From NCBI RefSeq assembly GCF_009882945.1, contig NZ_WTUY01000004.1:735341-799340 (forward strand): a stretch of 64,000 nt of DNA. The letters are read 5' to 3'. The stretch comes from Alcanivorax sp. DP30 (GTDB taxonomy: Bacteria > Pseudomonadota > Gammaproteobacteria > Pseudomonadales > Alcanivoracaceae). Below the pieces are notes generated by a model. That model was not told the origin of the DNA and did no database searches. It worked only from the letters and a program-made list of their open reading frames with translations. Of the stretch, positions 1,986 to 50,805 are shown in pieces. Each line of letters begins with the position of its first letter. Within the stretch, counting starts at the first letter, position 1. The translations under genes were made by a program, and so were the position numbers.

Positions 1986-2150
1986 GCAATGAATAATTAA
2001 TAGTTAATAATGAATAACTCGCGGTAAGCGTTAGCGAGTCGTCAAACGCAAGAGGCCGCGCCCTTGTTATGGGCGCGGCCTCTTGCGTTTGAAAAACAGA
2101 CAGGGCGCATTCGCGCCGTTATTCATTATTAACTATTAATTATTCATTGC
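1986..2150. repeat. Heptad inverted element, AT-rich arms, between pyrC' and the DsbG-like gene
   Basis: Two perfectly complementary 33-bp arms (1986-2018 and 2118-2150) flank a ~100-bp core. Each arm reads in 7-bp steps (AATGAAT, AATTAAT, AGTTAAT, AATGAAT). The left arm begins at the base after the pyrC' stop, and the right arm contains the stop codon of the convergent DsbG-like gene (2144-2146), so the element fits stop to stop. The core carries the strong hairpin listed separately. Confidence 0.85.
2043..2091. terminator. Bidirectional hairpin terminator between convergent genes
   Basis: A perfect 21-bp stem (2043-2063 with 2071-2091) and 7-base loop, GC-rich in the middle and flanked by AAA and TTT at the stem base. 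It sits midway between convergent pyrC' and the DsbG-like gene, inside the core of the AT-rich inverted element. It probably terminates transcription from both sides. Confidence 0.7.
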
Positions 2151-2701
2151 AGTTGAAACACCGCCTCCCGCAAATCCTCGTCCCCCAACACCCCGGGTGC
2201 GACGCGCCATCGTCCCTCCGGGTCCTGGAAGACCAGGGTCGGGGTGGCGCCCAGGCCAAGGCCGATCATCAAGCCGGTGTTGTTGTGGATCTGGCTGCGT
2301 ACCGCGGCGGGAACCGGTTCCAGTGGGGGGATGCCGCCCTGCTTGAACTGGCTTTCATGGCGGGCCAGGGCGACGGCGGGGTTGATGGCTGCCAGTACCG
2401 CGGCGCCCTGGGTGAAGCTGCGTTTGGGATGGATCAGGCCGACGATGATGTGGCGCACCTGCAGGGTGTTGGCCGGGTCATTCACCATGGGCTGCATGCT
2501 TTGCCACAGCGTGGCGCAGTAGGGGCAGGCCATGTCGGTAAACACATAGGCCACTCGCTCCGGCTGCTGCGGCCCCTCGGCGACCCAGTGACTGGCTTCG
2601 AGTTTGGCCAGCAGGCTGTCCATGGTGGCCTCGCTGGCCTGGGTTGCCAACGGCAGCAGCAGACCCAGCAACGGGGCAAGCAACAGGGGCACAATCTTCA
2701 T
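2144..2701 (-). CDS. Periplasmic DsbG/DsbC-like thiol:disulfide protein
   Basis: A 185-residue secreted thioredoxin-fold protein. Residues 1-22 form a signal peptide ending near TQA. The redox motif CPYC is at residues 59-62 and the cis-proline segment GATPTLVF lies near the C-terminus. Length and the FTDMACPYC context fit a short DsbG-type protein lacking the usual dimerisation domain. Its start overlaps the upstream TlpA-like gene by 4 bases, so the pair is likely an operon in which the membrane protein supplies or removes electrons. The last codons and stop lie in an inverted repeat arm. The exact client proteins are unknown. Confidence 0.75.
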   Translation of the reverse strand: MKIVPLLLAPLLGLLLPLATQASEATMDSLLAKLEASHWVAEGPQQPERVAYVFTDMACPYCATLWQSMQPMVNDPANTLQVRHIIVGLIHPKRSFTQGAAVLAAINPAVALARHESQFKQGGIPPLEPVPAAVRSQIHNNTGLMIGLGLGATPTLVFQDPEGRWRVAPGVLGDEDLREAVFQLQ

Positions 2702-3516
2702 GGGGAGGCTCCGGGCAAGTGTGGCTGAACAAAATGATGCAGGCTGGCGGCAGACAAGGGACCAAAGTGGCGTGCCAGTTCGTTGCCTGCTGCGTCCACT
2801 AGCAAGGTGAGCGGCAGGCCGCTGCTACCGGCATGCTCGCTGAGGCTGGTGTGTGGGTCCAGCAACAGAAAATCAAACTGCAGGGCCTGTTCGAGGAGAT
2901 AGCGGCGCACCGACACGGATTGCTCGCCCTGGTTGGCGAGCACGATGCGCAGCTGCGGGTAATCGGTTTGGGCTGCCTGCAACACCGGCATTTCCCGGCG
3001 GCAGGGCGGACACCAACTGGCCCAGAGATTGATCAGCGTAAGCTGGCCGGCGCTGACCTGTTTCAGCGACACCGGCTCTCCCTGCAGGGTATACAGGGTG
3101 GTATCCGGTAGCGGTGTGACCGGATCACGCAGGGCCAGCAGTATCACCACTGTTGCTGCCGCGCTGGCAGCACCGGCGCCCAGCGCCACCAGCAATCCTG
3201 CCCGCTGTTGCGGGCTGCGCCATAGCAGCAGGGTCGCCACTGGCACCGCCAGGATGGCGCCGGGCCACCACCACCCGCCATCGCGGATATCCAGCATGGC
3301 CGCAAGGCCGGGATACTGCTCCTGATAGCGCCACAGAAAAGCCAGTCTGGCGCCGAGCAGGCCAGCCAGGACGATCAGCCACAGGGCTTTTTCATTCCCT
3401 GTCCGGTGACGCCGCTTTTGCCACCATTGAAAGCAGAATGCCGCGGTCAAGAAGGCGATCAAAATAACGAAGGCGGCAGCGGGCATGGCCAGGGGGCCGA
3501 TGATTACGGCGTCCAA
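2698..3516 (-). CDS. Membrane-anchored TlpA-family thiol reductase
   Basis: A 272-residue protein with about four predicted membrane helices (near 8-28, 43-62, 83-100 and 107-128) followed by a periplasmic thioredoxin-like domain with WCPPC at 168-172. The family reduces disulfides in the periplasm, for example during cytochrome c maturation or isomerase recycling. The apparent start is TTG at 3516, preceded by AAGGA; an ATG at residue 11 is an alternative. It overlaps the DsbG-like gene by 4 bases, which points to joint function. The N-terminal helices vaguely resemble the Lgt topology, but I see no Lgt catalytic signature. Confidence 0.75.
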   Translation of the reverse strand: MDAVIIGPLAMPAAAFVILIAFLTAAFCFQWWQKRRHRTGNEKALWLIVLAGLLGARLAFLWRYQEQYPGLAAMLDIRDGGWWWPGAILAVPVATLLLWRSPQQRAGLLVALGAGAASAAATVVILLALRDPVTPLPDTTLYTLQGEPVSLKQVSAGQLTLINLWASWCPPCRREMPVLQAAQTDYPQLRIVLANQGEQSVSVRRYLLEQALQFDFLLLDPHTSLSEHAGSSGLPLTLLVDAAGNELARHFGPLSAASLHHFVQPHLPGASP

Positions 3517-3545
3517 ACGGTTTCCTTGTCAATGAGAGGGTGGGG

Positions 3546-4058
3546 TCAGTCAAACCGTTCGAACATCTCTTTCACGGCCTTGTCGATATGGGCCTGGCGC
3601 CGTTCACTGCTCATTTCATCGTGCAGCCGGTCGCGGCTGGTGGCCTGCCACACCACATTGTTGCTGGCCGGGTCCACAAGCTGCACCACCAACTTGTATT
3701 CCTCGGTCATCTCGCCCTCCACCGGTGTACTGGCGCCCAGGGCCACATTATTGAAGCCGTAGCCAAAGCCGAACTGCATCACGTCACCATCATAGCGCTG
3801 CTCGCGCTTGAAGAAGTGGCGAACCTGGATGTCGGCCTGGTCTGCAGGCACGGATTTGATCCCCTGACTGGCAAGGGCGGTTTCCAGTGCCTTGCGGGCG
3901 CGCTGATCATCCAGGGCGCGGGGAGTGTCTTCATCCTGTTCGATAAAGGCGTAGGTCTGGTACTGGCTCGGCGTGACATTGTCCTGGCGGTCGATTACCA
4001 CCGGGCTGACGCAGGCGCTGAGGAGCAGAAGGGCAATGAACAGGGTCAGTGAACGCAT
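3546..4058 (-). CDS. DUF4136-type outer-membrane lipoprotein
   Basis: A 170-residue predicted lipoprotein with lipobox LLSAC at about residue 16, so it is exported and lipid-anchored. The body has the pattern of DUF4136 proteins: a TYAF segment, an ARKALETALASQG helix and the ending WQATSRDR...VKEMFERF. I chose the ATG at 4058 because GGAGAG lies just before it; an ATG four codons upstream would bury that ribosome site. It lies between the TlpA-like gene and a LysR regulator, all on the minus strand. Function of the family is unknown. Confidence 0.75.
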   Translation of the reverse strand: MRSLTLFIALLLLSACVSPVVIDRQDNVTPSQYQTYAFIEQDEDTPRALDDQRARKALETALASQGIKSVPADQADIQVRHFFKREQRYDGDVMQFGFGYGFNNVALGASTPVEGEMTEEYKLVVQLVDPASNNVVWQATSRDRLHDEMSSERRQAHIDKAVKEMFERFD

Positions 4059-4103
4059 GAATCTCTCCATTCAACGAGTCAGTCCAGTGTCAGGCACCTG
4101 TTG

Positions 4104-5006: not shown

Positions 5007-5091
5007 ATCGAATTACCTGACCTAAACAAGCAAATTTACTCCGTTTTATATCGGTTAAACTGAAATCACAATAGCTCCATCAATTAAATAC

Positions 5092-5112
5092 CACTGACCA
5101 AGGTGGTCGGTG
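5092..5112. promoter_or_regulatory. Inverted repeat in azoR leader, candidate operator
   Basis: CACTGACCA and TGGTCGGTG form a 9-bp near-perfect dyad (8 of 9) with a 3-base spacer, 23 bases upstream of the azoR start and downstream of the LysR start. It could be a LysR-type or other operator, or an mRNA hairpin covering the region before the ribosome site. No experimental link exists. Confidence 0.35.
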
Positions 5113-5134
5113 AGCAAAAGATGGAGTGAGTGTG

Positions 5135-5728
5135 ATGAATATTCTGGTGATCAAGAGCAGCGTTTTCAGCGATGGCGGTAACTCCTCTGCCCTGGTGAAC
5201 GCAAAGGTCGAGGCACTCAAGGCCGCGCACCCTGAAGCACACATCGTGGAGCGGGATCTGGCCGCCAACCCCATTCCCCATCTGGACGGTGAGCGTGTCG
5301 GGGCCTTCTTTACGCCGTCGCAAGAGCGCACTGCGGAGCAGCAGCAGGTGGATGATTTCTCCATGGCGCTGATTGAAGAATTGAAGGCAGCGGATCAGGT
5401 GGTGGTGGGCCTGCCCATGTACAACTTTGGCATTCCCAGCCAGCTGAAAAGCTGGATTGACCACGTGGCTCGTGCCGGCATCACCTTCCGCTACACGGAA
5501 AATGGTCCCGAAGGCCTGCTGGCAGACAAGCCGGTCACAGTGCTCGCTGCCCGCGGAGGTTTGTACGCCGGCACCGACAACGACACGGTGACCCCGTACA
5601 TCAAACTCTTCTTTGGCTTTGTCGGCATTACCAGTGTGGATTTCGTGTTCGCCGAGGGGCTGAACATGGGAGACGACACCAAGGCAAAAGCCTTGGATGA
5701 AGCGAAGGCGGCAATAGAAAACAGTTAA
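5135..5728 (+). CDS. azoR: FMN-dependent NADH:azoreductase / quinone reductase
   Basis: A 197-residue flavodoxin-fold enzyme that reduces quinones and azo compounds with NADH using bound FMN. Family motifs are visible: N-terminal MNILVIKSSVFS phosphate loop, the PMYNFGIPSQLKSWIDHVAR segment and ARGGLYAG. Length matches the ~200-residue family. I start at the ATG at 5135 with GGAG 8 bases upstream, rather than the GTG at 5126. It is divergent from the LysR gene and is followed directly by a heptad repeat arm that overlaps its stop. Confidence 0.9.
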   Translation: MNILVIKSSVFSDGGNSSALVNAKVEALKAAHPEAHIVERDLAANPIPHLDGERVGAFFTPSQERTAEQQQVDDFSMALIEELKAADQVVVGLPMYNFGIPSQLKSWIDHVARAGITFRYTENGPEGLLADKPVTVLAARGGLYAGTDNDTVTPYIKLFFGFVGITSVDFVFAEGLNMGDDTKAKALDEAKAAIENS

Positions 5729-5863
5729 AAGTTGAAAGTTCAAAAGCGCGGGATAACCAAGCGTGATTTCTAAATCTTTGTGCCCGCGACGTTACCAGTA
5801 ATCGCGGGCAGGGCCTTGCGGAAACGACAGCCTGGCCCGCGTTAAAACGTTCAACGTTCAACG
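5723..5863. repeat. Heptad inverted element, AGTTNAA arms, azoR to yqjG
   Basis: Left arm 5723-5745 (units AGTTAAA, AGTTGAA, AGTTCAA) and right arm 5841-5863 (units CGTTGAA when read on the minus strand). The arms are imperfect partners (A versus C at the unit start). The core contains two GCCCGCG/CGCGGGC-type stems and the string TAATCGCGGGCA that recurs in the element at 12020. The left arm begins inside the azoR stop region. Confidence 0.75.
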
Positions 5864-5902
5864 CAACCTCGCTGAAGACCGGTACAAAGATCAGGAGACA
5901 TC

Positions 5903-6904
5903 ATGGGACTGTTGGTAGAAGGCAAATGGCAGGACAAGTGGTACGACACCAAGAGCACCGGTGGCCGCTTCAAGCGCTCTGAAAGCCAGTTTCGCAACTG
6001 GGTTACCACCGAGGGTGAGGCTGGTCCCAGTGGTGAAAGTGGCTTCGCGGCAGAAAGCGGCCGTTATCATCTGTATGTGTCCTATGCCTGCCCCTGGGCC
6101 CATCGCACCCTGATCGTACGAGCTCTGAAAGGGCTTGAGGATCATATTGGTGTGTCCGTGGTGCATCCGCACATGCTGGAAAAGGGTTGGGAATTGCGTG
6201 ATGACTTTGACGGTGCCAGCGGTGATGCGCTGTATGGATTCAGCAAACTGTATGAGCTGTATCTGAAAGCGGATGGAAACTATACCGGCCGCGTCACGGT
6301 GCCGGTGTTGTGGGACACCAAACGCGAAACCATCGTCAGCAATGAGTCTGCCGAGATCATCCGGATGCTGAATACCAGCTTTGATCATCTTGGTGCCACC
6401 CCCGGGAACTTTTATCCGCAAGCGTTGCAGGCTGACATCGATGCCATCAACGAGCCCGTGTACCACGACGTTAACAACGGTGTGTACAAGAGCGGCTTTG
6501 CCACCAGTCAGGAGGCTTATGATGACGCGGTAACCACGCTGTTTGATCGACTGGATGAACTGGAAGCGCGGCTTGGCGAGCAACGCTATCTGGTCGGCAA
6601 TACGTTGACGGAAGCGGATCTTCGCCTGTGGACCACCCTGGTGCGATTCGACCCGGTCTATGTCACTCACTTCAAGTGTGACCGCAACCGCATCAGCGAT
6701 TATCCGAACCTTCAGGGGTTCCTGAAAGACATTTACCAACTGCCCGGTGTGGCAGACACCGTGAACATGGCGCACATCCGTCATCACTATTTCTGCAGTC
6801 ACCCGACGGTGAATCCCCACGGGATTATTTCCACGGGTCCGCAGCTGGACTGGGATTCCCCTCATGGTCGTGAGCGGTTGGGGGAAAGAAAAATCAGCAG
6901 CTAG
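5903..6904 (+). CDS. yqjG: Glutathionyl-hydroquinone reductase (YqjG/PcpF family)
   Basis: A 333-residue Xi-class glutathione transferase that removes glutathione from glutathionyl-hydroquinones. The catalytic SYACPWAHRTLIVRALKG segment holds the nucleophilic cysteine (residue ~63), followed by SNESAEIIRMLN and the all-helical domain with RYLVGNTLTEADLRLW. Start ATG is preceded by AGGAGA. Together with azoR, pirin and the FMN reductase it forms a cluster of quinone and redox-stress functions, though separated by repeat elements. Assignment is firm at family level. Confidence 0.92.
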   Translation: MGLLVEGKWQDKWYDTKSTGGRFKRSESQFRNWVTTEGEAGPSGESGFAAESGRYHLYVSYACPWAHRTLIVRALKGLEDHIGVSVVHPHMLEKGWELRDDFDGASGDALYGFSKLYELYLKADGNYTGRVTVPVLWDTKRETIVSNESAEIIRMLNTSFDHLGATPGNFYPQALQADIDAINEPVYHDVNNGVYKSGFATSQEAYDDAVTTLFDRLDELEARLGEQRYLVGNTLTEADLRLWTTLVRFDPVYVTHFKCDRNRISDYPNLQGFLKDIYQLPGVADTVNMAHIRHHYFCSHPTVNPHGIISTGPQLDWDSPHGRERLGERKISS

Positions 6905-6978
6905 CGATGAGCTGCCAGCTGCGAGAAAAAGATTTTGATTTTAACTCGAAGCTAGTCGCTCGCAGCTCGTAGCTTCTT
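6895..6978. repeat. Heptad inverted element without core, yqjG to pirin
   Basis: Left arm 6895-6929 and right arm 6941-6978 consist of degenerate 7-bp units of the GAGCTGC/AAGCTAC type and are separated by only ~11 bases, so this copy lacks the ~100-bp core of the others. The left arm overlaps the yqjG stop and the right arm ends just before the pirin ribosome site (AGGAGG). Confidence 0.65.
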
Positions 6979-7854: not shown

Positions 7855-7860
7855 CGCATG

Positions 7861-8828: not shown

Positions 8829-8973
8829 GGTCGGACGCCTGACGTCGGAGGTCAGAGGCTAAAAACAAAAGACAAATGCCGAAAAACAAAGCCTCACGCT
8901 GAATGAGGTGCGCACCTTTCAGTGGGTCGAGGCCTGGGGTGGCGTCCGACTTCCGACGTCAGACGTCCGACCA
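8829..8973. repeat. Heptad inverted element, GTCNGAC arms, FMN reductase to LOG gene
   Basis: Left arm 8829-8858 and right arm ~8943-8973 are built from units such as GTCGGAC, GCCTGAC, GTCGGAG. The two arms differ at a few positions only. The core (about 85 bp) holds a smaller dyad around GCCTC/GAGGC. The element fills the space between two convergent stop codons. Confidence 0.75.
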
Positions 8974-9582: not shown

Positions 9583-9795
9583 GTAGGAGCGTCGGTTATT
9601 CGCTTCGCTCTCCCTTCGGGCCGCCCTGCGGGCGTTCCTTCGCTGCGCTCGGTGGCGGCGCGATTTAAACCCAGGATCACCACAGAGGCCACAGAGAAAT
9701 GATGGTTTTTTTACTCAGTGAACTCAGTGTCCTCTGTGGTAAATGTGTCTTAACGGCGTCAGGTTATCGCGCCGCGAGCGACGCTCCTACGGCTG
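9583..9795. repeat. Composite REP plus 9-bp-period inverted element
   Basis: Outer ends are REP-like (left GTAGGAGCGTCGGTT with a partial stem, right GCGCCGCGAGCGACGCTCCTAC). Nested inside are arms with a 9-bp period (ACCACAGAG, GCCACAGAG; on the other side ACCACAGAG, GACACTGAG, TTCACTGAG). A second copy lies at 20265-20434. The element separates the LOG gene start from the phoR stop, a span with no other content. Confidence 0.75.
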
Positions 9796-11983: not shown

Positions 11984-12019
11984 GTTCGGCGGAAATTGGA
12001 GGAAATGCAAGAGTAGTGA

Positions 12020-12216
12020 CAAGCTTCAAGCTGCAAGCTACAACGCGGATCGATTGAGTAGCCACCCGAAGACGCCGGGAGCCGCGTTTCCTGGTCAGAG
12101 TGGGTAAGCAATGGGCTGGACTTGAATTCGTCAGGTTTGATCAGCCATTAATCGCGGGCACGGCATGGCAGATCTTGAAACCCTGACCCGCGTTGTAGCT
12201 TGCAGCTTGAAGCTTG
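12020..12216. repeat. Heptad inverted element, AAGCTNC arms, phoB to ubiA
   Basis: Arms 12020-12047 and 12189-12216 are perfectly complementary over 28 bp and read in 7-bp units CAAGCTT, CAAGCTG, CAAGCTA. The ~140-bp core includes TAATCGCGGGCACGGC, also found in the cores at 5746 and 27641. With the Pho box it accounts for the ~310-bp gap between phoB and ubiA; no gene is visible there. Confidence 0.85.
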
Positions 12217-12220
12217 CTAC

Positions 12221-13093
12221 TTAGAAGTACTGGAAGAACAAGCCCACAAACACGCACGCCCCACTCCAGTGATTGTTCAGGAACGCATGGAAGCTGGGCC
12301 AGCGCTCCCGGTAGCGGATCAGGGTGTGCTGGTAAATAAAGGTCACGGACATGGCCGCGATGCCGGCATACCAGGGCCAGGTAAATTCCAGCCGTTGGCC
12401 GACCATGATCAGCGCCAACAATGTCAGCCCTTGCAGAATGCCGATCATCAGGCGGTCCGCATCGCCGAACAGGATGGCAGTGCTCTTGATGCCCATCTTC
12501 AGGTCATCTTCCCGGTCGCACATGGCGTATTCGGTGTCATAGGCTACCGTCCACACCAGGTTCGCCACATACAGCAGCCAGGCGATTTCCGGTACATGGC
12601 CGGCCTCGGCGGCAAAGGCCATGGGGATGGCCCAGCTGAAGGCAGCGCCGAGGAACAGCTGCGGCATGAAAGTGAAGCGCTTGGTGAAGGGGTAGAGCAC
12701 GGCCAGCCCCAGGCCGCCGAAGGACAGCCAGAAGGTCAGCTCGTTAAGGAACAACACCAGCACAAAGGCCATCAGACCCAGCCCGGCAAACAGGGCCAGG
12801 GCTTTTTTGCTGCTGATGGCACCGGTGGCCAGTGGCCGCCCCTTGGTGCGTTCCACTCCGCCGTCGAAATCCCGATCGGCGAAATCGTTAATCACACAGC
12901 CCGCCGCGCGCATGATCACCACGCCCAGGAAGAAGATCACGATGGTCTTCAGACTTGGCGTGCCCTCCCCGGCGATCCACACCGCCCACATCGTCGGCCA
13001 CAGCAGCAGCAGGGTGCCGATGGGCCGGTCCAGCCGCATTAGCTGGAGATAGGGCCACAGGGCGGGATAGCGGTGTTCAACGAAAGCAAACAT
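12221..13093 (-). CDS. ubiA: 4-hydroxybenzoate polyprenyltransferase
   Basis: A 290-residue integral membrane prenyltransferase of ubiquinone synthesis that attaches the polyprenyl tail to 4-hydroxybenzoate. Both aspartate-rich Mg-diphosphate motifs are present: NDFADRDFDGGVERTKGRPL (~residues 69-88) and YDTEYAMCDREDD (~183-195), with about eight membrane helices. It is followed on the same strand side by ubiC, whose product makes its aromatic substrate. The intervening 237 bp hold an inverted REP pair. The stop directly follows a heptad repeat arm. Confidence 0.95.
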   Translation of the reverse strand: MFAFVEHRYPALWPYLQLMRLDRPIGTLLLLWPTMWAVWIAGEGTPSLKTIVIFFLGVVIMRAAGCVINDFADRDFDGGVERTKGRPLATGAISSKKALALFAGLGLMAFVLVLFLNELTFWLSFGGLGLAVLYPFTKRFTFMPQLFLGAAFSWAIPMAFAAEAGHVPEIAWLLYVANLVWTVAYDTEYAMCDREDDLKMGIKSTAILFGDADRLMIGILQGLTLLALIMVGQRLEFTWPWYAGIAAMSVTFIYQHTLIRYRERWPSFHAFLNNHWSGACVFVGLFFQYF

Positions 13094-13167
13094 GGGACAT
13101 CCGGTTGTCAGTGCGGGATAAGTTTCTAGTCACAAGGAGCAAGTTGCAAGACGCGGATCAGGGCTTC

Positions 13168-13336
13168 CTGTAGGCGCAGCTCTTGAGGTGCGAATGGAGC
13201 GACAGTGAGCCCCCAAGGTGGAAGCGAGTAACGAATGTTGAAAACCAACCCATGGGTCCGCCAGGTTTTGATCTTTGATACTGGCTGCTCGTAACCCGGA
13301 ATTCCCCCTTTCGCACCTCAAGAGGTGCGCCTACAG
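13168..13336. repeat. Inverted REP pair between ubiC and ubiA
   Basis: Arms 13168-13194 and 13310-13336 are complementary over 27 bp with one mismatch. Each has the REP layout: a GTAG head followed by a short self-complementary stem (GCACCTCTTGAGGTGC in the right copy). The right arm supplies the TAG stop codon of ubiC (13331-13333). The ~115 bp between them show no gene. Confidence 0.75.
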
Positions 13337-13873
13337 GGACCCTGTAGAAGCGGTGTCATCTGACACCTTCTCCCACAACGCCGGCAGGAAGTATTCTGCC
13401 ACCAGCAACGGTGCGCCGCGTTTGATGAAGCGCGACTGCCTGCCCCAACACAGCGGATGACCGTGGCCGGGCGACGCCAGCCGGGCCCAGACCTGATCGC
13501 GTTGGCAGAGCGGGCGTTTGTAGAGTTCAAGCCCCAAGGAGCGGCTGCCCATGTGGCCCAGGGAGCGGTTGGCACCGCGCAGGCTACTCACTGGCAGGAT
13601 ACTGCGGGCGGCCACCACTGGAATGTCATCCAGCATCAGGGTCACTTCGCGAACCAGCGCCGCCTGTCTGATGGGCAAATCAAGTAGCCGCCGTTCGTCC
13701 AGGGTGGGCACGGCCATGGCATGGAAGCCGGGGACGACCTGAAAATGCCCATGACGCCTGAGACGCAGGGTCAGGGAATCCGGATCGGCCATCCAGTCGC
13801 GGATCAGCGGCGGCATCACCAGCTGGCCAAGCGGGCGCCAGTGGCTGTCAGGATGGAGGGCGGCAGGCAGCAT
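13331..13873 (-). CDS. ubiC: Chorismate pyruvate-lyase
   Basis: A 180-residue cytosolic enzyme that converts chorismate to 4-hydroxybenzoate and pyruvate for ubiquinone synthesis. Recognisable features are the VREVTLMLDDIPVVAARSILP strand pair with the substrate-binding arginine, the SLGHMGSRSLGLELYK segment and the C-terminal RQSRFIKRGAPLLVAEYFLP. Next to ubiA, as commonly seen. The C-terminus runs into a REP head, whose GTAG gives the stop; the last few residues (STGSL) therefore come from repeat DNA and may have replaced a native end. Confidence 0.92.
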   Translation of the reverse strand: MLPAALHPDSHWRPLGQLVMPPLIRDWMADPDSLTLRLRRHGHFQVVPGFHAMAVPTLDERRLLDLPIRQAALVREVTLMLDDIPVVAARSILPVSSLRGANRSLGHMGSRSLGLELYKRPLCQRDQVWARLASPGHGHPLCWGRQSRFIKRGAPLLVAEYFLPALWEKVSDDTASTGSL

Positions 13874-14376: not shown

Positions 14377-15525
14377 ATGAACCCAGTAGTCATCATCGGC
14401 ACCGGCCTGGCCGGCTTCAACACCGTCAAGGAATTCCGCAAGCTGGACAAGGAAACGCCCATCGTCATGCTGACCGCCGACGACGGACGCAATTATTCCA
14501 AGCCCATGCTGTCTGCCGGTTTTACCAAGGAAAAGACCGCTGATGACCTGTGCATGGCGACCCCGGAAAAAGTGGCCGAACAGTTCAATGTGGAAGTGCG
14601 CACGGGTATCCACGTAGCCGGAATCGACACTGACGCCAAGCGTGTGCTGCTGCCGGATGCGCATCTGGATTACAGCAAGCTGGTGTTGGCGCTGGGTGCC
14701 GACACCTGGACGCCGCCGCTGGAAGGCGATGCCGTGGGCAAGGTGTTTTCCGTCAACGACCTGATGGACTACGGTCGTTTCCGCGCGGCCCTGGAAGGCA
14801 AGAAGAAGGTGACCATTCTGGGTGGCGGCCTGATCGGCTGTGAGTTCGCCAACGATTTGTCCAACGGTGGTTTCGACGTGGAATTGGTAGAGCCCATGGG
14901 CCGCTGCTTGCCGTTGTTGCTGCCGGAAGCGGCCTCCGAAGCCGTGGGCCGTGGCCTGGCTGATCTGGGCGTGACATTCCACTTTGGCCCGCTGGCCAAG
15001 GCAGTGCACCATGGTGACGGCGACAAGCTGGTCACCGAATTGTCTGACGGCAGCAAGATCGAATCCGATGTGGTGTTGTCTGCCATCGGCCTGCGCCCGC
15101 GCATCAGCATGGCCCAGGAAGCCGGCCTGACCACCAACCGCGGTATCCTCACCGACAAGACATTGCGTACCAACGCCGAAGACGTCTATGCACTGGGTGA
15201 CTGCGCCGAAGTACAGGGGCATGTGCTGCCCTACGTGTTGCCCCTGATGGCTTCCGCCCGTGCCCTGGCCAAGACCCTGACCGGTGAGATCACGGAAGTC
15301 AGCTACGGTGTGATGCCGGTGACCATCAAGACGCCGGCCTGTCCGGTGGTGGTTTGTCCTGCTCCCCAGGACAGTGAAGGGGAATGGGAAATCGAGGCGG
15401 ATGGCAACACCGTCCAGGCCCTGTTCCGCGGCAAGGATGGTAACCTGCTGGGCTATGCCCTCACCGGGGATGCGGTGAAGGAAAAGATGAAGCTCAACAA
15501 GGAATTGCCGGCGGTAATGCCTTAG
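14377..15525 (+). CDS. rubB: Rubredoxin-NAD(+) reductase
   Basis: A 382-residue FAD flavoprotein that reduces rubredoxin with NADH. The N-terminal FAD-binding motif is VVIIGTGLAGFNTVKEFRK (residues ~4-22), the NADH-binding motif VTILGGGLIGCEFANDL (~145-161), and the second FAD motif is DVYALGDCAEV (~270-280). Length and the C-terminal ~70-residue domain match alkane-system reductases (AlkT/RubB). Co-located with rubA, so the two supply electrons to alkane hydroxylases encoded elsewhere. A heptad repeat arm starts right after its TAG stop. Confidence 0.95.
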   Translation: MNPVVIIGTGLAGFNTVKEFRKLDKETPIVMLTADDGRNYSKPMLSAGFTKEKTADDLCMATPEKVAEQFNVEVRTGIHVAGIDTDAKRVLLPDAHLDYSKLVLALGADTWTPPLEGDAVGKVFSVNDLMDYGRFRAALEGKKKVTILGGGLIGCEFANDLSNGGFDVELVEPMGRCLPLLLPEAASEAVGRGLADLGVTFHFGPLAKAVHHGDGDKLVTELSDGSKIESDVVLSAIGLRPRISMAQEAGLTTNRGILTDKTLRTNAEDVYALGDCAEVQGHVLPYVLPLMASARALAKTLTGEITEVSYGVMPVTIKTPACPVVVCPAPQDSEGEWEIEADGNTVQALFRGKDGNLLGYALTGDAVKEKMKLNKELPAVMP

Positions 15526-15530
15526 TCGCT

Positions 15531-15669
15531 ACTCGCTTCAAGCTGCGAGCTACGAGGCGCGTGATAGAAAGGGGGGGCAGAACGCCTTCCCCGCGCTTCG
15601 GGCAGCGGTAGCTGCGATTTTTAATTTGCATGGTCTGTGATCGTGTTGCAGCTTGTAGCTTGAGGCTCA
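15531..15669. repeat. Heptad inverted element, AAGCTNC/GAGCTNC arms, rubB to SCP2-like gene
   Basis: Left arm ~15531-15561 (units CTTCAAG, CTGCGAG, CTACGAG) and right arm ~15641-15669 (read in reverse: CTCAAG, CTACAAG, CTGCAAC). The arms diverge more than at 12020 or 22048. The core has GCAGCGGTAGCTGC-like small dyads but no gene. Confidence 0.65.
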
Positions 15670-15690
15670 TACCTTGAATAAGGACTTTCC

Positions 15691-16068: not shown

Positions 16069-16075
16069 CCCTTTT

Positions 16076-16160
16076 CGAGGTGCGAGAAGCGAGTTTCGAA
16101 AACCCGCCCTTCCATTCAGGTGGGTTTTGCCCTTCGCAACTCGAAACTTGTCACTCGCTC
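16076..16160. repeat. Heptad inverted element, GAGTTNC arms, with hairpin core
   Basis: Left arm 16076-16100 (GAGGTGC, GAGAAGC, GAGTTTC) and right arm 16133-16160 (read in reverse: GAGTGAC, AAGTTTC, GAGTTGC). The short core forms AACCCGCC / GGTGGGTT, a terminator-like hairpin just after the SCP2-like stop. Confidence 0.7.
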
Positions 16161-20242: not shown

Positions 20243-20264
20243 TCACACTCCGGGAAAATGCTCT

Positions 20265-20434
20265 GCTGTAGGTGCGTCGCTGGCGGCGCGATTCAGGCCC
20301 GGGATCAAAAGCATTTTCACCACAGAGGGCACAGAGTAACCCTCTTCATTTCCTCAGTGATCTCTGTGCCCTCTGTGGTAAATGTGCTTTAACGACGTTG
20401 GGCTATCGCGCCGCGAGCGACGCTCCTGCGGCAC
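20265..20434. repeat. Composite REP plus 9-bp-period inverted element (second copy)
   Basis: Outer REP-like arms (left GTAGGTGCGTCGCTGGCGGC, right GCCGCGAGCGACGCTCCTGC) enclose inner arms ACCACAGAG, GGCACAGAG / ACCACAGAG, GGCACAGAG, ATCACTGAG. The right half is nearly identical to that of the copy at 9583-9795. It fills the MATE-znuB gap. Confidence 0.75.
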
Positions 20435-21985: not shown

Positions 21986-22047
21986 AACAAGGGGCCCGTA
22001 ATACAAAGGCGCAATGATATACTGCGCGGCTTTCGCCTGCACTGAAG

Positions 22048-22170
22048 GGCTAGCTGCAAGCTTCAAGCTACAAGCTACAAGGCGCGCCATAAGCCTTGCG
22101 GCGCGGCTCAAAGGTTTTCAGGTGGCAACGGGCCAGCTCGCGCCTTGTAGCTTGAAGCTTGCAGCTAGCC
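22048..22170. repeat. Heptad inverted element, AAGCTNC arms, between znuC and znuA
   Basis: Left arm 22048-22086 (39 bp) and right arm 22139-22170 (32 bp) are perfectly complementary except that the left has exactly one extra 7-bp unit (AAGCTAC). The ~50-bp core holds GCCTTGCGGCGCGGC. The element lies between divergent znu promoters. I see no convincing Zur box in the flanking bases. Confidence 0.85.
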
Positions 22171-22202
22171 CCGCCTTCGTCATTCAAGTAAGAGGGAATT
22201 CC

Positions 22203-27604: not shown

Positions 27605-27612
27605 AGCAGCCA

Positions 27613-27758
27613 CAAGCTTCAAGCTTCAAGCTGCAACACGGGCAATACTCTCATCCGCTGACATGCCGTGCCCGCGAACCACAAAGGCGGTGCGCGGGCA
27701 CGGCGCTGGATTCATCCTGGAACTTTACTCGTGTTGCAGCTTGAAGCTTGCAGCTCGC
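27613..27758. repeat. Heptad inverted element, AAGCTNC arms, esterase to DUF815 gene
   Basis: Left arm 27613-27640 and right arm 27730-27758 share a 21-bp perfect match (units CAAGCTT, CAAGCTG ending CAACACG). The core contains a 12-bp stem GCCGTGCCCGCG / CGCGGGCACGGC. The element occupies the whole gap between two convergent stop codons. Confidence 0.8.
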
Positions 27759-35398: not shown

Positions 35399-35465
35399 CT
35401 GCGGGCGGAAATTCTTGGGGGAAATGTCTGTAAGGGCATTTCCCTTTTAGAGGCGGATGCATTTC

Positions 35466-35530
35466 CGTAGGAGCGTCGCTTGCGGCGCGATAATGAACGC
35501 GGGTATCGCGCCGCAAGCGACGCTCCTACG
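35466..35530. repeat. Inverted REP pair (REPIN) between mmsA and acyl-CoA dehydrogenase
   Basis: A perfect 27-bp inverted repeat (35466-35492 with 35504-35530) around an 11-base spacer. Each arm starts with a GTAG head (CGTAGGAGCGTCGCT) followed by a GC-rich palindrome, the known architecture of paired REPs mobilised by RAYT transposases. It lies within the presumed mms operon. Confidence 0.85.
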
Positions 35531-35573
35531 GCGAAAATGGTAAGTGAATACACGATCTTGAAGGGATCAAACC

Positions 35574-36732: not shown

Positions 36733-36815
36733 GTCGGACGTCGAAGGTCGGACGTCGAACGACAAGGAAATCCAGAATGGGTTTAGCGTCTGACTTCCGA
36801 CGTCAGACATCCGAC
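36733..36815. repeat. Heptad inverted element, GTCNGAC arms, acyl-CoA dehydrogenase to mmsB
   Basis: Left arm 36733-36761 (GTCGGAC, GTCGAAG, GTCGGAC, GTCGAAC) and right arm 36785-36815 (read in reverse: GTCGGAT, GTCTGAC, GTCGGAA, GTCAGAC). The short core is ~23 bp. It begins 7 bases after the acyl-CoA dehydrogenase stop. Confidence 0.75.
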
Positions 36816-36870
36816 CCGTCTCTAAACGCACAACAATATCCGCTCGGGAAAGCGGCATGGAGAGACAATC

Positions 36871-37764
36871 ATGAAAATCGGATTCTTCGGTGTCGGTCAC
36901 ATGGGTGGCCCCATGGCCGCCAATCTGGTCAAGGCCGGTCATGAGGTAACGGCATTTGATCTGGTGCCCGCCTTGTTGGCGGCCGCAGTGAATGATGGCG
37001 TCAAGGCTGCCGAGAGTGCCGCTGAAGCGGTGCAGGGGGCGGACGTGATCGTGAGCATGCTGCCATCGGCGGGGGCGGTGCGTGGCCTGTACCTTGGCGA
37101 CAGTGGCGTCCTGCAACACATCGATAAAAGCGCCCTGATTATCGACTGCTCCACCATCGATGCGGATACCGCCCGGGATGTGGCCGGTATCGCGAAAGAG
37201 CAGGGCAGGGAGATGATCGATGCGCCGGTGTCCGGTGGTGTCGGCGGTGCCAAGGCCGGCACGCTAACCTTTATCTGTGGCGGTGAAGAAGGCGCCATCG
37301 AACGCGCCCGCCCGGTGCTGGAATGCATGGGCGCCCAGGTTTTCCGCGCCGGCGACAACGGCGCAGGCCAGCTGGCAAAGATCTGCAACAACATGCTGCT
37401 GGCCATTCACATGATCGGCACCGCCGAAGCGCTGCAAATGGGCGCGGATCATGGTCTGGATCCGGCCGTCCTCTCCGAGATCATGAAAGCCAGCTCTGGC
37501 GATAACTGGTCCCTGGACAAGTACAACCCCTGGCCAGGCGTCATGGAAAACGTGCCGTCGTCAAAAGATTATGAGGGTGGCTTCGCCGTAAAACTCATGA
37601 ACAAGGATCTGGGTCTGGCCCTGCAGGCTGCGCTCAGCACCCAGTCCGCCACCCCCATGGGCAACCTGGCCAAATCCCTGTATGCCGCGCATGGCAACCA
37701 TGGCTATTCGGACAAGGATTTTTCCAGTATCCAGCGCTTCTTCCGCCACAAAGAAAGCAATTAA
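36871..37764 (+). CDS. mmsB: 3-hydroxyisobutyrate dehydrogenase
   Basis: A 297-residue NAD-dependent beta-hydroxyacid dehydrogenase converting 3-hydroxyisobutyrate to methylmalonate semialdehyde, the substrate of MmsA. The Rossmann motif is GFFGVGHMGGPMAANLVKAGH (residues ~4-24), the substrate-binding MIDAPVSGGVGGAKAGTL and the catalytic Lys segment GAGQLAKICNNM follow. It completes the mms gene set. A solo AT-rich heptad arm begins at its stop. Confidence 0.95.
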   Translation: MKIGFFGVGHMGGPMAANLVKAGHEVTAFDLVPALLAAAVNDGVKAAESAAEAVQGADVIVSMLPSAGAVRGLYLGDSGVLQHIDKSALIIDCSTIDADTARDVAGIAKEQGREMIDAPVSGGVGGAKAGTLTFICGGEEGAIERARPVLECMGAQVFRAGDNGAGQLAKICNNMLLAIHMIGTAEALQMGADHGLDPAVLSEIMKASSGDNWSLDKYNPWPGVMENVPSSKDYEGGFAVKLMNKDLGLALQAALSTQSATPMGNLAKSLYAAHGNHGYSDKDFSSIQRFFRHKESN

Positions 37765-37765: not shown

Positions 37766-37792
37766 AATGAAAAATTAATAGTTAATAACGAA
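37766..37792. repeat. Solo AT-rich heptad arm after mmsB
   Basis: AATGAAAAATTAATAGTTAA-type sequence, closely matching one arm of the element at 1986-2150, starts right after the mmsB stop. No complementary second arm is visible before the convergent gene's stop at 37858, so this copy is truncated or half-size. Confidence 0.6.
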
Positions 37793-37857
37793 AGCAAAAG
37801 GCTGCGCACATGACGGTCAGGTGTATGGCGAACAATTAACCTCTGATGTGATAAGGG

Positions 37858-47655: not shown

Positions 47656-48721
47656 CGTTGTGGCTGCGATGCCTGTTTGTGCATACGCCGAACAGACCTT
47701 TGATAGCGCCGCCAAACCCCCGGAAACCTGGACGCCACCCCTGTTCGACGTGCAGCAGTGGGACTGGATTCAGGTGGATACCGGTGAGTGGGTAAAGGGG
47801 CGCCTCAAGGTATTGCATGATGAGTCCGTAGAGATCGACAGTGATCATTTCGACCTGATTTCCATCGACTGGGAAGACATTGCCTATATCCGCACCGGAC
47901 GTGTCATGTCGGTATTGCTTGAAGGTGGCGAGGTGGTGCTCGGTCGGCTGACAACGGTCAATGGCAGGCTGCTGGTGGGTGGCGAGGAAGTCACCTTCGA
48001 GGAGGTGGTTGGCATTGCCAGTGCTTCCCCTCGTGAGTTTGATCTCTGGTCTGCCGATGTGTCCGTGGGTTTGAATTTTCGCAGCGGTAACGTGGAGCAA
48101 AAGGACCTGAATACCAAGATGGTTCTGAAGCGTCGCACAGTGAAGAACAACACACGGATGAGCTATACCGGGAATTATTCCGAGTCTTCATCGGAGCAAA
48201 TAGCCAACAATCATACCGCTGAAGCGTCGCACGATTACCGGATCAGTAAGCGCTGGTTTTTTCGGCCAGTGCAGGCCCAGTATTATCGCGATCCCTTCCA
48301 GAACCGGGCGGCAGAGTGGACGCTAGGATTTGGAGGCGGCTATCAGATTTTTGATACCCCGAAACTGGACTGGAGCATTGCAGCGGGGCCGGGTTACCAG
48401 CGAACCGAGTATGTGGACGTGGCACCCGGAGAAGATAGAACCGTTTCGACACCGGCGTTTCTGATTGGCAGCTTTTATGACAGCGAAATCACCGAGAATA
48501 TCGATTTTATTGCCGAGTACCAGGTAACCCTTACGGAGCCCAAGGGCGGGCGAGCCAAACATGATTTTTACATGGCACTGGATGTGGATCTGACCAGTCG
48601 CCTGGATCTCCGTCTTGCGGGCACCTGGAAACGCATCGAAACTCCGCAGCCGGATAGTGATGGCATTACCCCAGAGAAGGATGACTTTACCGCAACCCTG
48701 GGCTTGTCGCTGGAAATCTGA
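47621..48721 (+). CDS. DUF481 outer-membrane protein
   Basis: A 366-residue protein with signal peptide (MMKKAAFLAASFVVAAMPVCAYA) followed by a domain of ~100 residues, then DVSVGLNFRSGNVEQKDLNTKMVLKRRT, the start of the DUF481 beta-barrel (YdiY-like). The C-terminal DFTATLGLSLEI ends with a hydrophobic strand. A frame start at 47552 exists, but the signal peptide begins at 47621, so I use that ATG. It is 69 bp after glsA. Function of DUF481 proteins is unknown; some are acid-inducible. Confidence 0.75.
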   Translation: MMKKAAFLAASFVVAAMPVCAYAEQTFDSAAKPPETWTPPLFDVQQWDWIQVDTGEWVKGRLKVLHDESVEIDSDHFDLISIDWEDIAYIRTGRVMSVLLEGGEVVLGRLTTVNGRLLVGGEEVTFEEVVGIASASPREFDLWSADVSVGLNFRSGNVEQKDLNTKMVLKRRTVKNNTRMSYTGNYSESSSEQIANNHTAEASHDYRISKRWFFRPVQAQYYRDPFQNRAAEWTLGFGGGYQIFDTPKLDWSIAAGPGYQRTEYVDVAPGEDRTVSTPAFLIGSFYDSEITENIDFIAEYQVTLTEPKGGRAKHDFYMALDVDLTSRLDLRLAGTWKRIETPQPDSDGITPEKDDFTATLGLSLEI

Positions 48722-49038
48722 ACCCCCCGCTTCGACTATCCGGTCTTGCGCTCTTTCCTGCAGAAGTCCGGTTTGTCCAGAAGAATGGACGGCAGAAGTG
48801 TGCACCTCGGTCATTCGCTCAGGCAATCTGATCGCCGGCAAACCGGAAACGCGCCTCTTTGTTTAACGCATCAACGTGGGCAGGTACTAGCTTTTTGGCT
48901 AAGCAAATCTGGATTGGCTTTAGGCTGGAAAGATAGAATTCTTGAAAAAAACGTTACCCCAGTCGCTTTCGCTAGAATGGGAAATGTGACGGATCTATGC
49001 TCAGTATAGATCTCAGGCGCCATTCAGGAGGCGTTGTC
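48722..49038. other. 317-bp gap upstream of the secreted hydrolase
   Basis: No gene is visible. The only structure is a dyad GATCTAT / ATAGATC (48992-48998 with 49006-49012), 27 bases before the start of the next gene, which may be an operator or leader hairpin. An AT-rich stretch around 48940 could hold a promoter; hexamers cannot be assigned. Confidence 0.4.
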
Positions 49039-50697
49039 ATGAAGCGTTTAAGGACGCTGCTGACGGGGTGTTTTCCGATTTTTTTGACTGTTATCGCGAG
49101 TGGCCCCGTCCTGGCAGCAATGGATTTCCAGGTGCGAATACTCGCTGTCGGAGAGGGCAATGTGGTGCCTCCCGGTGAGCCCTTTCCGATTCGCTATGTG
49201 GTAACCGCCAATAGTTATTCCAGTCACTATTACTATGTTGATGGTGTACTCAGGAAAACCCGCAGCAACAGCAGTACGGGTTCACAGGCGGGAGAATTCT
49301 CGGTGACTTACCCCGGCGGATTTTCCGACGGTGACAGGAAAACGATTGCCATTTGTCTGCAGCATGATGGTGATCTGGTCTGCGATGAGATCAGTATTCG
49401 TGCCGGTCAGGTATTGCAACTGGATCAGGCGGTGGAAGTGCACACCGTCGGTATCAACAATCATGTGCCTGCTGGCCAGCCCTTCGACATTTCCTATGAC
49501 GTGTTAAAGCCCGGCAGCTCAAGTCATTACTACTATGTGGATGGGAGTCTGGCTGCTACGCAAAGCAAGGGCAGCAATGATGGTGGGGAGTTTTCCATTA
49601 CCTACCCCTGGGGGCTGGCGGTGGGTGAGAGTACCCATGTGAGGATTTGTGTGGACACAGCTGCAGAGCAGGCCTGTGGTGAGAAGCTGATTACGGGTGG
49701 CCCTGCGCCTGCAGGTGCCGACGCGCCGGCTGCCTTTGATGCAGATGTGATGAATGATCACTTTGTGACGTATGGAAGCTGTAACCCGGTTTGCGGTTAT
49801 TACGAAAATATTTATTACGGCGACAGCTCGGTGAGCTGGTTGCCAATTGTGGGGCCGGATAGTGAGCCCAATGGGCTGCGAATCGACGTGTATTACCCCA
49901 CCCAGGATGGCAGGGTGCATAGCGGTAGTGAAACCAACACTCTGGTGATCTATGCCCATTCGGCAAACCATACCAAGGAAACCATGCTGGGTCCCAAAAA
50001 GGGAACTTTGGCATCGTATCTTGATATCGAAGGTGGAGGGGCTGGCGGCGTTACGGTAGCGGCACTGGATTTTCGACATCCCGCGAAGGATATTGATGAA
50101 AACGGTTATCCTGTTTCAAAGGATGACATGAGCCATGCCATCCAGTTCTTTCGCTATTATGCGGATGTCTTCAAGATCAATCCTGATGATATTTTTATTA
50201 CTGGTTCGTCGCTGGGTGCCGGTGCAGGTATCCATGCTGCAGTGAAGGAGATTGCCAATCCTGATGATCCCTCACCGGTACGTCGGGTTTCCTCTCGCGT
50301 TCGAGGGGCATTCCTTGCCACAGGGCAAAGCTCCTTTTCTCCACAATGGTTTCGACGTAATTTTCTGGAAGAGGAAGTCTGGCCTTATTACCAGCCTGAT
50401 TTCTATGATGACGAGGAGCGTTCCATCTACGGTCACGCGGTGGCGGACGTAGATGAAAATTCGCCGATCCTTGAGCTTGGCTATGAAGCTGATTTCATTG
50501 ATCACAAGGTCACGGCCAGCGAAAAAAGCAACAAGGAGGTCGATCTGACTCACTTGCCGAATTACGGTCTGACCATACTGAACCAATACAAGCTACACGG
50601 TATTGATGACCGGATCATGGTGCGGGAAAGCTATGGTGGGTCTTTCGGGGGAGATTCTACCCGGTTCATCATGCGGAACCGTATATCGGGGGACTGA
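49039..50697 (+). CDS. Secreted alpha/beta hydrolase with tandem ~100-residue N-terminal repeats
   Basis: A 552-residue exported protein with signal peptide (residues 1-27, ending VLAA). Two successive repeats follow, exactly 100 residues apart: SHYYYVDG occurs at 62-69 and 162-169, each preceded by PxGxPFxIxY and followed by GEFSVTYP or GEFSITYP and a Cys pair. These look like Ig-like substrate-binding or adhesion domains. The C-terminal half is an alpha/beta hydrolase with nucleophile elbow GSSLGAG (Ser391). ATG 49039 has AGGAG upstream. The substrate is unknown; an extracellular ester or polymer is likely. Confidence 0.75.
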   Translation: MKRLRTLLTGCFPIFLTVIASGPVLAAMDFQVRILAVGEGNVVPPGEPFPIRYVVTANSYSSHYYYVDGVLRKTRSNSSTGSQAGEFSVTYPGGFSDGDRKTIAICLQHDGDLVCDEISIRAGQVLQLDQAVEVHTVGINNHVPAGQPFDISYDVLKPGSSSHYYYVDGSLAATQSKGSNDGGEFSITYPWGLAVGESTHVRICVDTAAEQACGEKLITGGPAPAGADAPAAFDADVMNDHFVTYGSCNPVCGYYENIYYGDSSVSWLPIVGPDSEPNGLRIDVYYPTQDGRVHSGSETNTLVIYAHSANHTKETMLGPKKGTLASYLDIEGGGAGGVTVAALDFRHPAKDIDENGYPVSKDDMSHAIQFFRYYADVFKINPDDIFITGSSLGAGAGIHAAVKEIANPDDPSPVRRVSSRVRGAFLATGQSSFSPQWFRRNFLEEEVWPYYQPDFYDDEERSIYGHAVADVDENSPILELGYEADFIDHKVTASEKSNKEVDLTHLPNYGLTILNQYKLHGIDDRIMVRESYGGSFGGDSTRFIMRNRISGD

Positions 50698-50706
50698 AAT
50701 AGCAAT

Positions 50707-50805
50707 GAGTGGCGAGTTACGAGTTACGAAAATCAAAACCTGCATGGGGATAAATGTTCTCCGCTCTTGAATTTCGCAACTCGCAACTCGTGACTCGTAA
50801 CTCGC
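50707..50805. repeat. Heptad inverted element, GAGTTNC arms, hydrolase to peroxiredoxin
   Basis: Left arm 50707-50734 (units GGCGAGT, TACGAGT, TACGAAA) and right arm 50769-50805 (reverse: GAGTTAC, GAGTCAC, GAGTTGC, GAGTTGC, GAAA). The core is short (~34 bp) and without a clear stem. This is the rightmost heptad element found in the window. Confidence 0.75.

Follow-up and report, generated by a model that had tools for sequence, protein, structure and literature searches.

The closest described counterpart of the elements reported here is the intervening sequence (IVS) of 23S rRNA genes in Coxiella and Leptospira, a short element with terminal inverted repeats that carries an open reading frame (ORF) for an S23 protein and, in Coxiella, tandem heptameric repeats before that ORF; it has been called a selfish element, its mobility has been discussed as a hypothesis, S23 proteins are said to have no known function, and the passages of that report on the IVS do not generalise the heptameric repeats (PMC4990558). 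Here, we describe a family of intergenic elements with inverted arms of tandem 7-base units (7-mers) in a 64,000-nucleotide stretch of the 3.62-Mb genome of Alcanivorax sp. DP30 (genome G000, contig C22, positions 735341-799340; hereafter "the window"), together with their association with genes of the S23 family (PF05635, 23S_rRNA_IVP; TIGR02436, "four helix bundle protein"), which are found in Gammaproteobacteria, Bacteroidota and other phyla. Unlike the IVS, which lies inside 23S rRNA genes and is excised by RNase III, these elements lie between protein genes, and the short ones have no ORF, occur in many copies and have 7-mer arms at both ends.

A second precedent comes from Xanthomonas, where GGGAATC heptads, mostly of four units and mostly intergenic, form 70 and 75 inverted pairs in two genomes, lie closer to the upstream gene and have been interpreted as G-quadruplex repeats; the passages on these heptads make no link to S23, and the main text of that paper contains neither "four helix bundle" nor "23S" (PMC4692102). 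A sequence-only reading of the window had called paired inverted heptad arms with changing units new to it, which is half right, inverted GGGAATC pairs being already in print. Among open PMC papers we recognised none that makes a general link between S23 and 7-mer arms; our analysis brings together the S23/heptad observation of Coxiella and the inverted-heptad observation of Xanthomonas. The TAACTGA repeats of Beggiatoaceae and cyanobacteria are likewise tandem 7-mers in many intergenic copies, but they are direct, keep to one fixed unit and lie mostly just upstream of start codons (PMC4679880). Classification among such heptameric simple sequence repeats or short tandemly repeated repetitive sequences, being direct repeats of one fixed unit, was rejected for the present arms, which are paired and inverted and differ in unit from one element, and one species, to another. 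REPIN/RAYT systems and miniature inverted-repeat transposable elements (MITEs) likewise consist of short inverted elements whose related gene is found at another genomic site; the present elements differ in that tandem 7-mers make up the arms, each lineage has its own unit, and the protein that goes with them is not a known transposase.

Results and discussion

S23 genes lie between inverted 7-mer arms

Inverted 7-mer arms mark S23 elements, and the phenomenon is real and general. PF05635 has 46 matches in 16 of 17 Alcanivorax genomes, and most of these genes sit between 7-mer arms. The survey covered 104 scanned S23 loci, these 46 and the rest from other Gammaproteobacteria and several phyla, of which 101 were examined: besides the genus, 29 loci represent a class set in which 57 of 274 other gammaproteobacterial genomes have S23, and 30 represent an "other" set in which, among the matches listed, S23 is present in 24 of 35 genomes (Bacteroidota, Pseudomonas, an Omnitrophota and a Gemmataceae genome; L332 and L257 are one locus). 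The genomes of the "other" set were picked, again among the matches listed, by a taxon scan with one exact 7-mer pattern, for which chance hits are expected.

At a period-7 score of at least 9, arms flank the gene on both sides in 44 of the 79 S23 loci used (10 of 89 were dropped as short) and on at least one side in 67, with both sides occupied in 17/29 genus, 13/23 other gammaproteobacterial and 14/27 other loci, and at least one side in 26/29, 21/23 and 20/27, respectively. By comparison, none of 28 loci of PF01797 (Y1/RAYT) genes, which have matches in 16 of the 17 genomes of the genus (2 of 30 loci were dropped), has a period-7 arm on either side (Fisher p = 1.5e-8 for the both-side and 1e-16 for the at-least-one-side counts). 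Any other period from 4 to 13 left no S23 locus with arms on both sides and at most 2 of a set with one, and the same geometry shifted 800-1200 bases along the S23 loci gave no two-sided case and one-sided cases in 2-6 of 50 and 0-2 of 29. After removal of duplicates, a gene-oriented re-analysis at a lower threshold (score at least 8) found at least one arm in 89 of 101 S23 loci (41 Alcanivorax, 25 class, 23 other) and both arms in 59 (32, 13 and 14), while the controls at this threshold, RAYT loci (2/28 one-sided) and shifted S23 loci (3-9 of 78 one-sided), yielded no case with both. Xanthomonas follows the same pattern: S23 occurs in 18 of 20 genomes, and each of the 19 loci is enclosed by two inverted arms, about four units long, of GGGA(A/T)T type in 13 and of GGGAC type in 6. 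S23 genes can also lie near one another, with two in G000 that have AAGCTNC-type arms about 4 kb apart (L041 4400-4970 and 8500-9050) and a similar pair, 3.9 kb apart and with two different units, in G003 (C5).

Structurally, the two arms of an S23 locus are inverted copies of each other, with a median local score of 17 within a locus versus 4 between loci; for 33 loci outside Alcanivorax, the score is 4 in direct orientation and 5 after shuffling, and an arm's own partner is the best of all in 17. Read along the gene strand, the arms of 80 of 89 loci are rich in purines. Their modal length is 30 nt (25 of 155 arms, with 29-32 nt in 55), which equals four periods plus two and so accommodates five in-phase dinucleotides. 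The PDB relatives of S23, 2gsc and 2rld, have five chains per entry, and a Xanthomonas S23-family protein has been described, in the passages on it, as a homopentamer (PMC4990558). Because the modal arm holds five in-phase dinucleotides and the structures have five chains, we suggest one 7-mer contact per S23 subunit. The 36 Xanthomonas arms measured 25 to 31 nt, most commonly 27 (14 arms), so that a fifth contact is often not resolved by this length measure. Across 167 arms under 45 nt, in-phase AG/GG dinucleotides numbered 0 in 6, 1 in 14, 2 in 11, 3 in 38, 4 in 48, 5 in 41 and 6 in 9.

The 7-mer unit follows the S23 protein

The 7-mer distance between loci falls as S23 identity rises (Mantel rho -0.33, reached by 0 of 999 permutations), from a median of 0.48-0.50 below 45% identity through 0.37 at 50-60% and 0.22 at 70-80% to 0.03-0.06 above 80%. 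The trend persists without pairs within Alcanivorax, and also when neither Alcanivorax nor a Pseudomonas-like set of ten loci is included (n=38, rho -0.20, 0/999). In one Alcanivorax slot, 13 genomes have S23 as five alleles, each with its own unit (Table 1). Four of these five units (AAGCTNC, GAGCTNN, GAGTTNC and AGTTNAA) occur in the window, and each of them, as well as GTCNGAC and TAATNAA, flanks an S23 gene somewhere in the genus. The sequence-only reading had proposed a common skeleton for most units and one ancestral heptad: AAGCTNC, GAGCTNN, GAGTTNC, AAGTTNC and AGTTNAA do differ by only one or two letters and all belong to S23 alleles of this one slot, whereas GTCNGAC comes from a separate S23 clade and is hence no simple variant of that heptad, the TAATNAA/CAGTNAA/TAATTGA group forming yet another S23 lineage. 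At the level of residues, no alignment column separates alleles C, D, E, F and G according to the A/G letter of the unit; for its C/T letter, six columns do so (49, 52, 69, 71, 73 and 80, counted from 0), which may simply reflect the protein tree.

Of the four remaining genomes, three show this slot in other states, and in G011 it was unreadable. Its flanks are about 63 nt apart in G009 instead of about 650, G004 has other DNA with no recognisable S23, and G001 has a broken S23 with pieces matching residues 1-51 and 80-118 of the G012 protein. G001 is also the sole genome of the 17 without a PF05635 match; it has no arm of score at least 11 in 91 kb and 2 exact 7-mer matches, versus 5 to 390 in the other 16.

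Copies without S23

Long near-perfect CAAGCTA arrays are carried by G000, with 13 arrays of at least four units in the stretches read, nine of which have at least six. The motif A(A/G)GTTCC follows all eight of the eight arrays of at least six units with a readable flank, two of these being S23 elements, and none of four four-unit arrays. One array copy without S23 matches at dozens of places in the genus, and its slot is empty in G002, where the flanks are about 40 nt apart versus about 430. The subterminal motif and the empty G002 slot are the best evidence for descent, and they suggest that the S23-less elements derive from S23 elements and have spread. Of the classical MITE features, inverted ends are present and a slot is empty in G002, where species divergence would hide any target-site duplication. 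No transposase partner was found among the two families searched (PF01797 and PF05635). Recognition of the units by S23 appears likely, because the units have spread outside S23 elements.

Co-occurrence was sampled in stretches away from the listed S23 genes, in 11 S23-positive and 10 S23-negative genomes, with 12 strong period-7 arms in 400 kb of the former versus 1 in 381 kb of the latter (rate p=0.002). An arm density like that of Alcanivorax is unusual among the S23-positive genomes sampled.

Several G000 arrays bear on the assembly or on other units. Contigs C15, C16 and C18 end inside long CAAGCTA arrays and some arrays run into N, so the true copy numbers of these arrays are not fixed by the assembly. 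Long perfect arrays of other 7-mers are also present, of GGCGTCA (10 units), AAACTCG (about 6) and TTTGGGC (4).

Elements of the window

Tandem 7-mers are present at all 12 places where the sequence-only reading had listed eleven paired elements and one solo arm (E1 to E12, Table 1), and its expectation that intergenic period-7 signal exceeds that of shuffled sequence was borne out. A fixed-lag self-similarity scan found 13 period-7 arms at score at least 10 in the window (11 at score at least 11) versus none after a first-order shuffle, and at the same threshold 0-2 arms at periods 5 and 8-13, 1 at period 4, 4 at period 6 and 4 at period 14, which is twice seven. An independent search recovered the inverted pairing of E1, E5 and E8, and the spacer between arms ranges from about 16 to 133 bases in the eleven inverted-pair elements. 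Exact 7-base steps, claimed for every arm, are an overstatement: seven of the 12 elements (E1, E2, E4, E5, E8, E9 and E12) have at least one arm over the scan threshold, whereas in E3, E6, E7, E10 and the solo E11 the repeats are visible but degenerate and below threshold; E10 was picked up by Tandem Repeats Finder with period 14. Arms were further said to match far better within an element than across elements. The median score is indeed 15.5 within and 5 between, yet in only 7 of 11 cases is the highest score strictly that with the own partner; E4 ties and E6, E7 and E10 fail, because elements that share a unit resemble one another.

All four PF05635 matches of G000 fall outside the window (C22:898371, C20:840508, C20:844600 and C23:81124), and no S23 gene was found inside the window elements, so these can only be S23-less relatives; they are most likely short, non-autonomous members of the S23 element family. 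Strong period-7 arms also occur in 18 of 20 other G000 stretches (a CAAGCT 7-mer match was the reason for picking 14 of the 20), and 15 of 16 congeners have them in their syntenic regions, the density being 17 arms per 100 kb in the window and 0 to 62 in the congeners.

Table 1. Elements of the window, types found in their orthologous slots, alleles of the five-allele S23 slot, and further features. Genome and locus handles are ours; empty cells, nothing recorded.
Feature	7-mer unit	Position	Arms	Pairing and context	Detection	Types in orthologous slot, or genomes
E1, paired	TAATNAA (TAATGAA/TAGTTAA)	1986-2150	1986-2018, 2118-2150	33/33 complementary; encloses perfect terminator-like hairpin 2042-2092; left arm begins at end of ORF 672-1985, right arm overlaps stop of convergent ORF 2144-2701	scan and inverted-repeat search	TAATNAA, CAGTNAA, TAATTGA
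E2, paired	AGTTNAA	5720-5869	~5720-5747, ~5840-5869	left arm contains stop codon of ORF ending at 5728	scan	GTCNGAC, AAGTTNC, AGTTNAA; window's own E2 unclassed by rule
E3, paired	(G/T)AGCTNN	6893-6975	~6893-6925, ~6942-6975	degenerate arms	below scan threshold	
E4, paired	GTCNGAC	8829-8972	8829-8859, 8942-8972	87%	scan	GTCNGAC, GAGTTNC
E5, paired	AAGCTNC	12015-12221	12015-12051, 12185-12221	37 nt at 92%; right arm extends to stop codon of minus-strand ORF 12221-13093	scan	AAGCTNC, TAGCTNN, AGTTNAA, AAGTTNC, ACGCNNC
E6, paired	AAGCTNC/GAGCTNC mixture	15522-15672	~15522-15556, ~15640-15672	degenerate	below scan threshold	AAGCTNC, AAGTTNC, ACGCNNC
E7, paired	GAGTTNC	16072-16160	~16072-16103, ~16127-16160		below scan threshold	
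E8, paired	AAGCTNC	22047-22171	22047-22074, 22144-22171	28/28 complementary	scan	AAGCTNC, AGTTNAA
E9, paired	AAGCTNC	27608-27758	27608-27645, 27725-27758	~90%; between convergent ORFs	scan	AAGCTNC, GAGTTNC, GAGCTNN, AGTTNAA
E10, paired	GTCNGAC	36733-36816	~36733-36764, ~36784-36816		below scan threshold	GTCNGAC, ACGCNNC
E11, solo arm	TAATNAA/TTAATAR	37766-37796 (+)		directly after stop codon at 37764		
E12, paired	GAGTTNC	50702-50806	~50702-50732, ~50772-50806		scan	
S23 slot allele	AAGCTNC					G000, G002, G015, G016
S23 slot allele	GAGCTNN					G005, G008, G010
S23 slot allele	GAGTTNC					G006, G007, G013, G014
S23 slot allele	AAGTTNC					G003
S23 slot allele	AGTTNAA					G012
Broken S23 of the slot	degenerate, AGTTNAA-like	L418 (G001:C1:1041400-1042100)		between arms		G001
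Array of other 7-mer	GGCGTCA	L057 3310-3380				G000
Array of other 7-mer	AAACTCG	L057 8514-8554				G000
Array of other 7-mer	TTTGGGC	L051 2633-2662				G000

The same slots in sister species

Gene order is largely conserved in the genus, so that a given intergenic slot is readable in as many as 17 genomes. Typing of slots E1-E11 by a fixed classification, which has no null model, found paired elements of at least two types in eight of the ten slots E1-E10, a count that drops to seven when the three E1 variants are taken as one type; slots E3 and E7 have one type each by the classification rule, slot E11 is readable in the window and two other genomes only, and some species have no element in a given slot. 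Evolutionarily, then, both arms of an element are usually of one type, and orthologous slots of sister species differ in type, in line with the sequence-only reading. In slot E1, several species retain a similar inner terminator (GAGGCCGCG...) between arms of differing type, and in slot E9 of G005 a GAGTTNC element lies between AGCT-type arms (by eye). Arms can also differ in type within an element: the E11 slot of G012 is chimaeric, with a TAATNAA left arm and a CAGTNAA right arm (by eye), and the earlier idea that paired arms are homogenised together, which may account for their likeness, has to allow for this case.

Other sequences use these slots as well. A small RAYT-like gene (by eye) stands in the E4 slot of G003 and G016 (L080, L083) where the window has its GTCNGAC element; it is flanked by a GTGCAGTTCGCC palindrome, different from the 7-mer arms, and in G016 it is the below-cut-off PF01797 match C10:13799-14089. 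The window has further palindromic intergenic repeats at 35465-35531, 20264-20433, 9586-9790 and 13162-13342, several of them of the CGTAGGAGCG...GGCGGCGCGAT type, with a companion ACCACAGAGG(CC)ACAGAG repeat, and similar palindromes sit in heptad slots of sister species (the E3 slot of G011 and G016).

Position relative to genes and alternative explanations

A mechanical search of the window and 40 syntenic stretches of the 16 congeners gave 71 paired elements, of which 58 lie between two called genes, 10 inside a mechanically called ORF and 3 could not be placed. The 58 intergenic elements occupy 27 convergent, 25 codirectional and 6 divergent gaps. Where a gene reads into the element, an element end falls within -20 to +15 nt of its stop codon in 43 of 52 cases (median 2, with the nearer of the two ends used in convergent gaps), and codirectional gaps have median distances of -1 nt from the stop codon and 20 nt from the start that follows. 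The elements thus tend to fill the space between a stop codon and the next gene start. Provision of stop codons in all frames, considered as the purpose of the TAATNAA unit, was rejected, since other units such as AAGCTNC have none (by eye).

This position, the terminator-like hairpin inside E1, the match between arms of an element and the long perfect arrays, which suggest active slippage, would all suit host-selected 3' hairpins, that is, terminators or mRNA-stabilising stems whose 7-mers arise by slippage and palindrome correction (template switching between arms) with no dedicated protein. We nevertheless consider such hairpins an unlikely explanation, as they do not account for why S23 genes of several phyla, but not RAYT genes, lie between arms, nor for the polarity of arms relative to S23, the coupling of unit and S23, and the empty and re-typed slots. 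Alternatively, the 7-mers could be solely autoregulatory S23 sites on DNA or mRNA, with the short elements serving as a regulon or sponge and not being mobile. Arms are indeed found shortly before the S23 start and shortly behind the stop, their polarity is nearly fixed, and copy number is reported to vary upstream of the Coxiella S23 ORF in the passages on that repeat (PMC4990558); yet a purely regulatory role seems quite unlikely given that arms stand at both ends, that the short elements lie behind stop codons with so few between divergent genes, that dispersed copies have extra subterminal sequence in common with S23 elements, and that slots differ among species.

It is also conceivable, although improbable, that S23 is a passenger that integrates into, or survives in, pre-existing 7-mer islands made by another agent. 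A passenger would fit a protein that is not known to have catalytic activity and a short-element type that the resident S23 does not predict; against it, the sampled S23-positive genomes of other families have few arms away from S23 (12 in 400 kb) and yet have them beside S23, the unit tracks the S23 sequence between genera too, and five alleles have five units at one slot. Repetitive extragenic palindromic (REP) sequences or bacterial interspersed mosaic elements (BIMEs) mobilised by RAYT (Y1) transposases are extremely improbable and were rejected, for although Y1/RAYT genes are widespread in the genus and one like them stands in the E4 slot of two species, that copy is flanked by a different palindrome, and no cognate RAYT gene flanked by the same repeats was met among the 28 loci, of which none has an arm at the higher threshold and only two have one, on a single side, at the lower.

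A proposed role of S23 as a trans-acting protein that binds the arms

From a mechanistic perspective, we consider it probable that S23 is a trans-acting factor, that the arms are its predicted binding sites and that the window elements are non-autonomous members of the S23 family. The full-length form would be an inverted 7-mer arm, an S23 gene (PF05635, about 105-140 aa) and a second inverted arm, about 430-600 bp in all. Each S23 lineage would read its own 7-mer, with a change of allele going with a change of 7-mer, and each subunit of a pentamer ring would contact one copy of a dinucleotide, often AG, repeated at 7-nt intervals; five such contacts, a full site, would span 4 x 7 + 2 = 30 nt. 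The trp RNA-binding attenuation protein (TRAP), a ring of 11 subunits that each bind regularly spaced triplets, provides an analogy for such ring binding with no sequence relation, the numbers here being five subunits and about two nucleotides. Arms may be bound as single-stranded RNA or DNA, or as hairpins, after which host enzymes would copy or insert the element; the moving step would be borrowed from the host, since we know of no strand-cutting or catalytic activity of S23, and elements would be found right behind stop codons, where they do least harm.

A broader proposal, which we offer tentatively and hold to be possible, is that S23 rings read tandem 7-mers with one subunit per 7-mer and a specificity that is rewritten between alleles, that with their arms they form a new class of mobile element without its own transposase, and that the same class underlies the 23S rRNA IVS, the Xanthomonas heptameric repeats and the window elements. 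The elements would count as a new class because every known family tested failed a defining feature. The window elements were rejected as 23S rRNA IVS, as they lie between ORFs and the window has no Rfam match at the gathering score, but if the 23S rRNA IVS is taken as a known kind, the present elements would be a new form of it. Diversity-generating retroelements (DGRs) were compared as well, their accessory protein Avd (NF033474), for which S23 gave a weak match (E=0.0038, far below its cut-off), being a possible distant relative of S23 in sequence. Avd is a pentameric nucleic-acid-binding partner of a reverse transcriptase; unlike in DGRs, no reverse transcriptase was seen as part of the present elements, though no search aimed at one was made.

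Several points weigh against these proposals. Common descent of arms and gene as one unit can alone yield a coupling such as that observed, which weakens (n=51, rho -0.13, 15/999) when each Alcanivorax allele is represented once and the Pseudomonas-like set is left out. The association itself is incomplete, with 12 of 101 S23 loci having no arm and only 59 having both, and the "other" S23 set, which makes up 35 of the listed loci, over-represents genomes with a CAAGCT 7-mer match. With regard to the pentamer, 53 of 89 loci have the dinucleotide AG unchanged from unit to unit, a count made without a chance control, arms with 3 or 4 in-phase AG/GG are as common as those with 5, and some arrays greatly exceed the length that five units would require. 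As for spread, the A(A/G)GTTCC motif was picked once examples had been seen, orthologous slots are too diverged for a target-site duplication to be recognised, and the contrast between S23-positive and S23-negative genomes is weak when counted by genome (5/11 vs 1/10, p=0.09).

The same holds for the fit between resident S23 and short elements. The E5-slot unit is that of the slot S23 allele in only 3 of 10 genomes with both classed, and among 12 genomes compared by eye, the E1-slot unit agrees with that of the resident clade-B S23 exactly in two and nearly in one. G014 has 390 CAAGCTNCAAGCTNCAAG matches, yet none of its three S23 genes is of AAGCTNC type, and the window has AGTTNAA, AGCTNN and GAGTTNC elements, for which S23 genes of those types were not found in G000. 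Resident S23 was therefore rejected as a predictor of the short-element type in the same genome, and earlier S23 alleles or donors must be invoked.

Implications

Through its regular link to tandem 7-mer arms, the S23 family gains a function that can be tested, and the scattered reports on heptameric repeats could be explained. The pairing of each allele with its own 7-mer, with 13 genomes, five alleles and five units in one slot, amounts to a natural specificity code. If the explanation put forward here is true, spread without a known strand-cutting enzyme would be a new mechanism, and the elements would be a new class of mobile DNA recognised by a widespread protein family.

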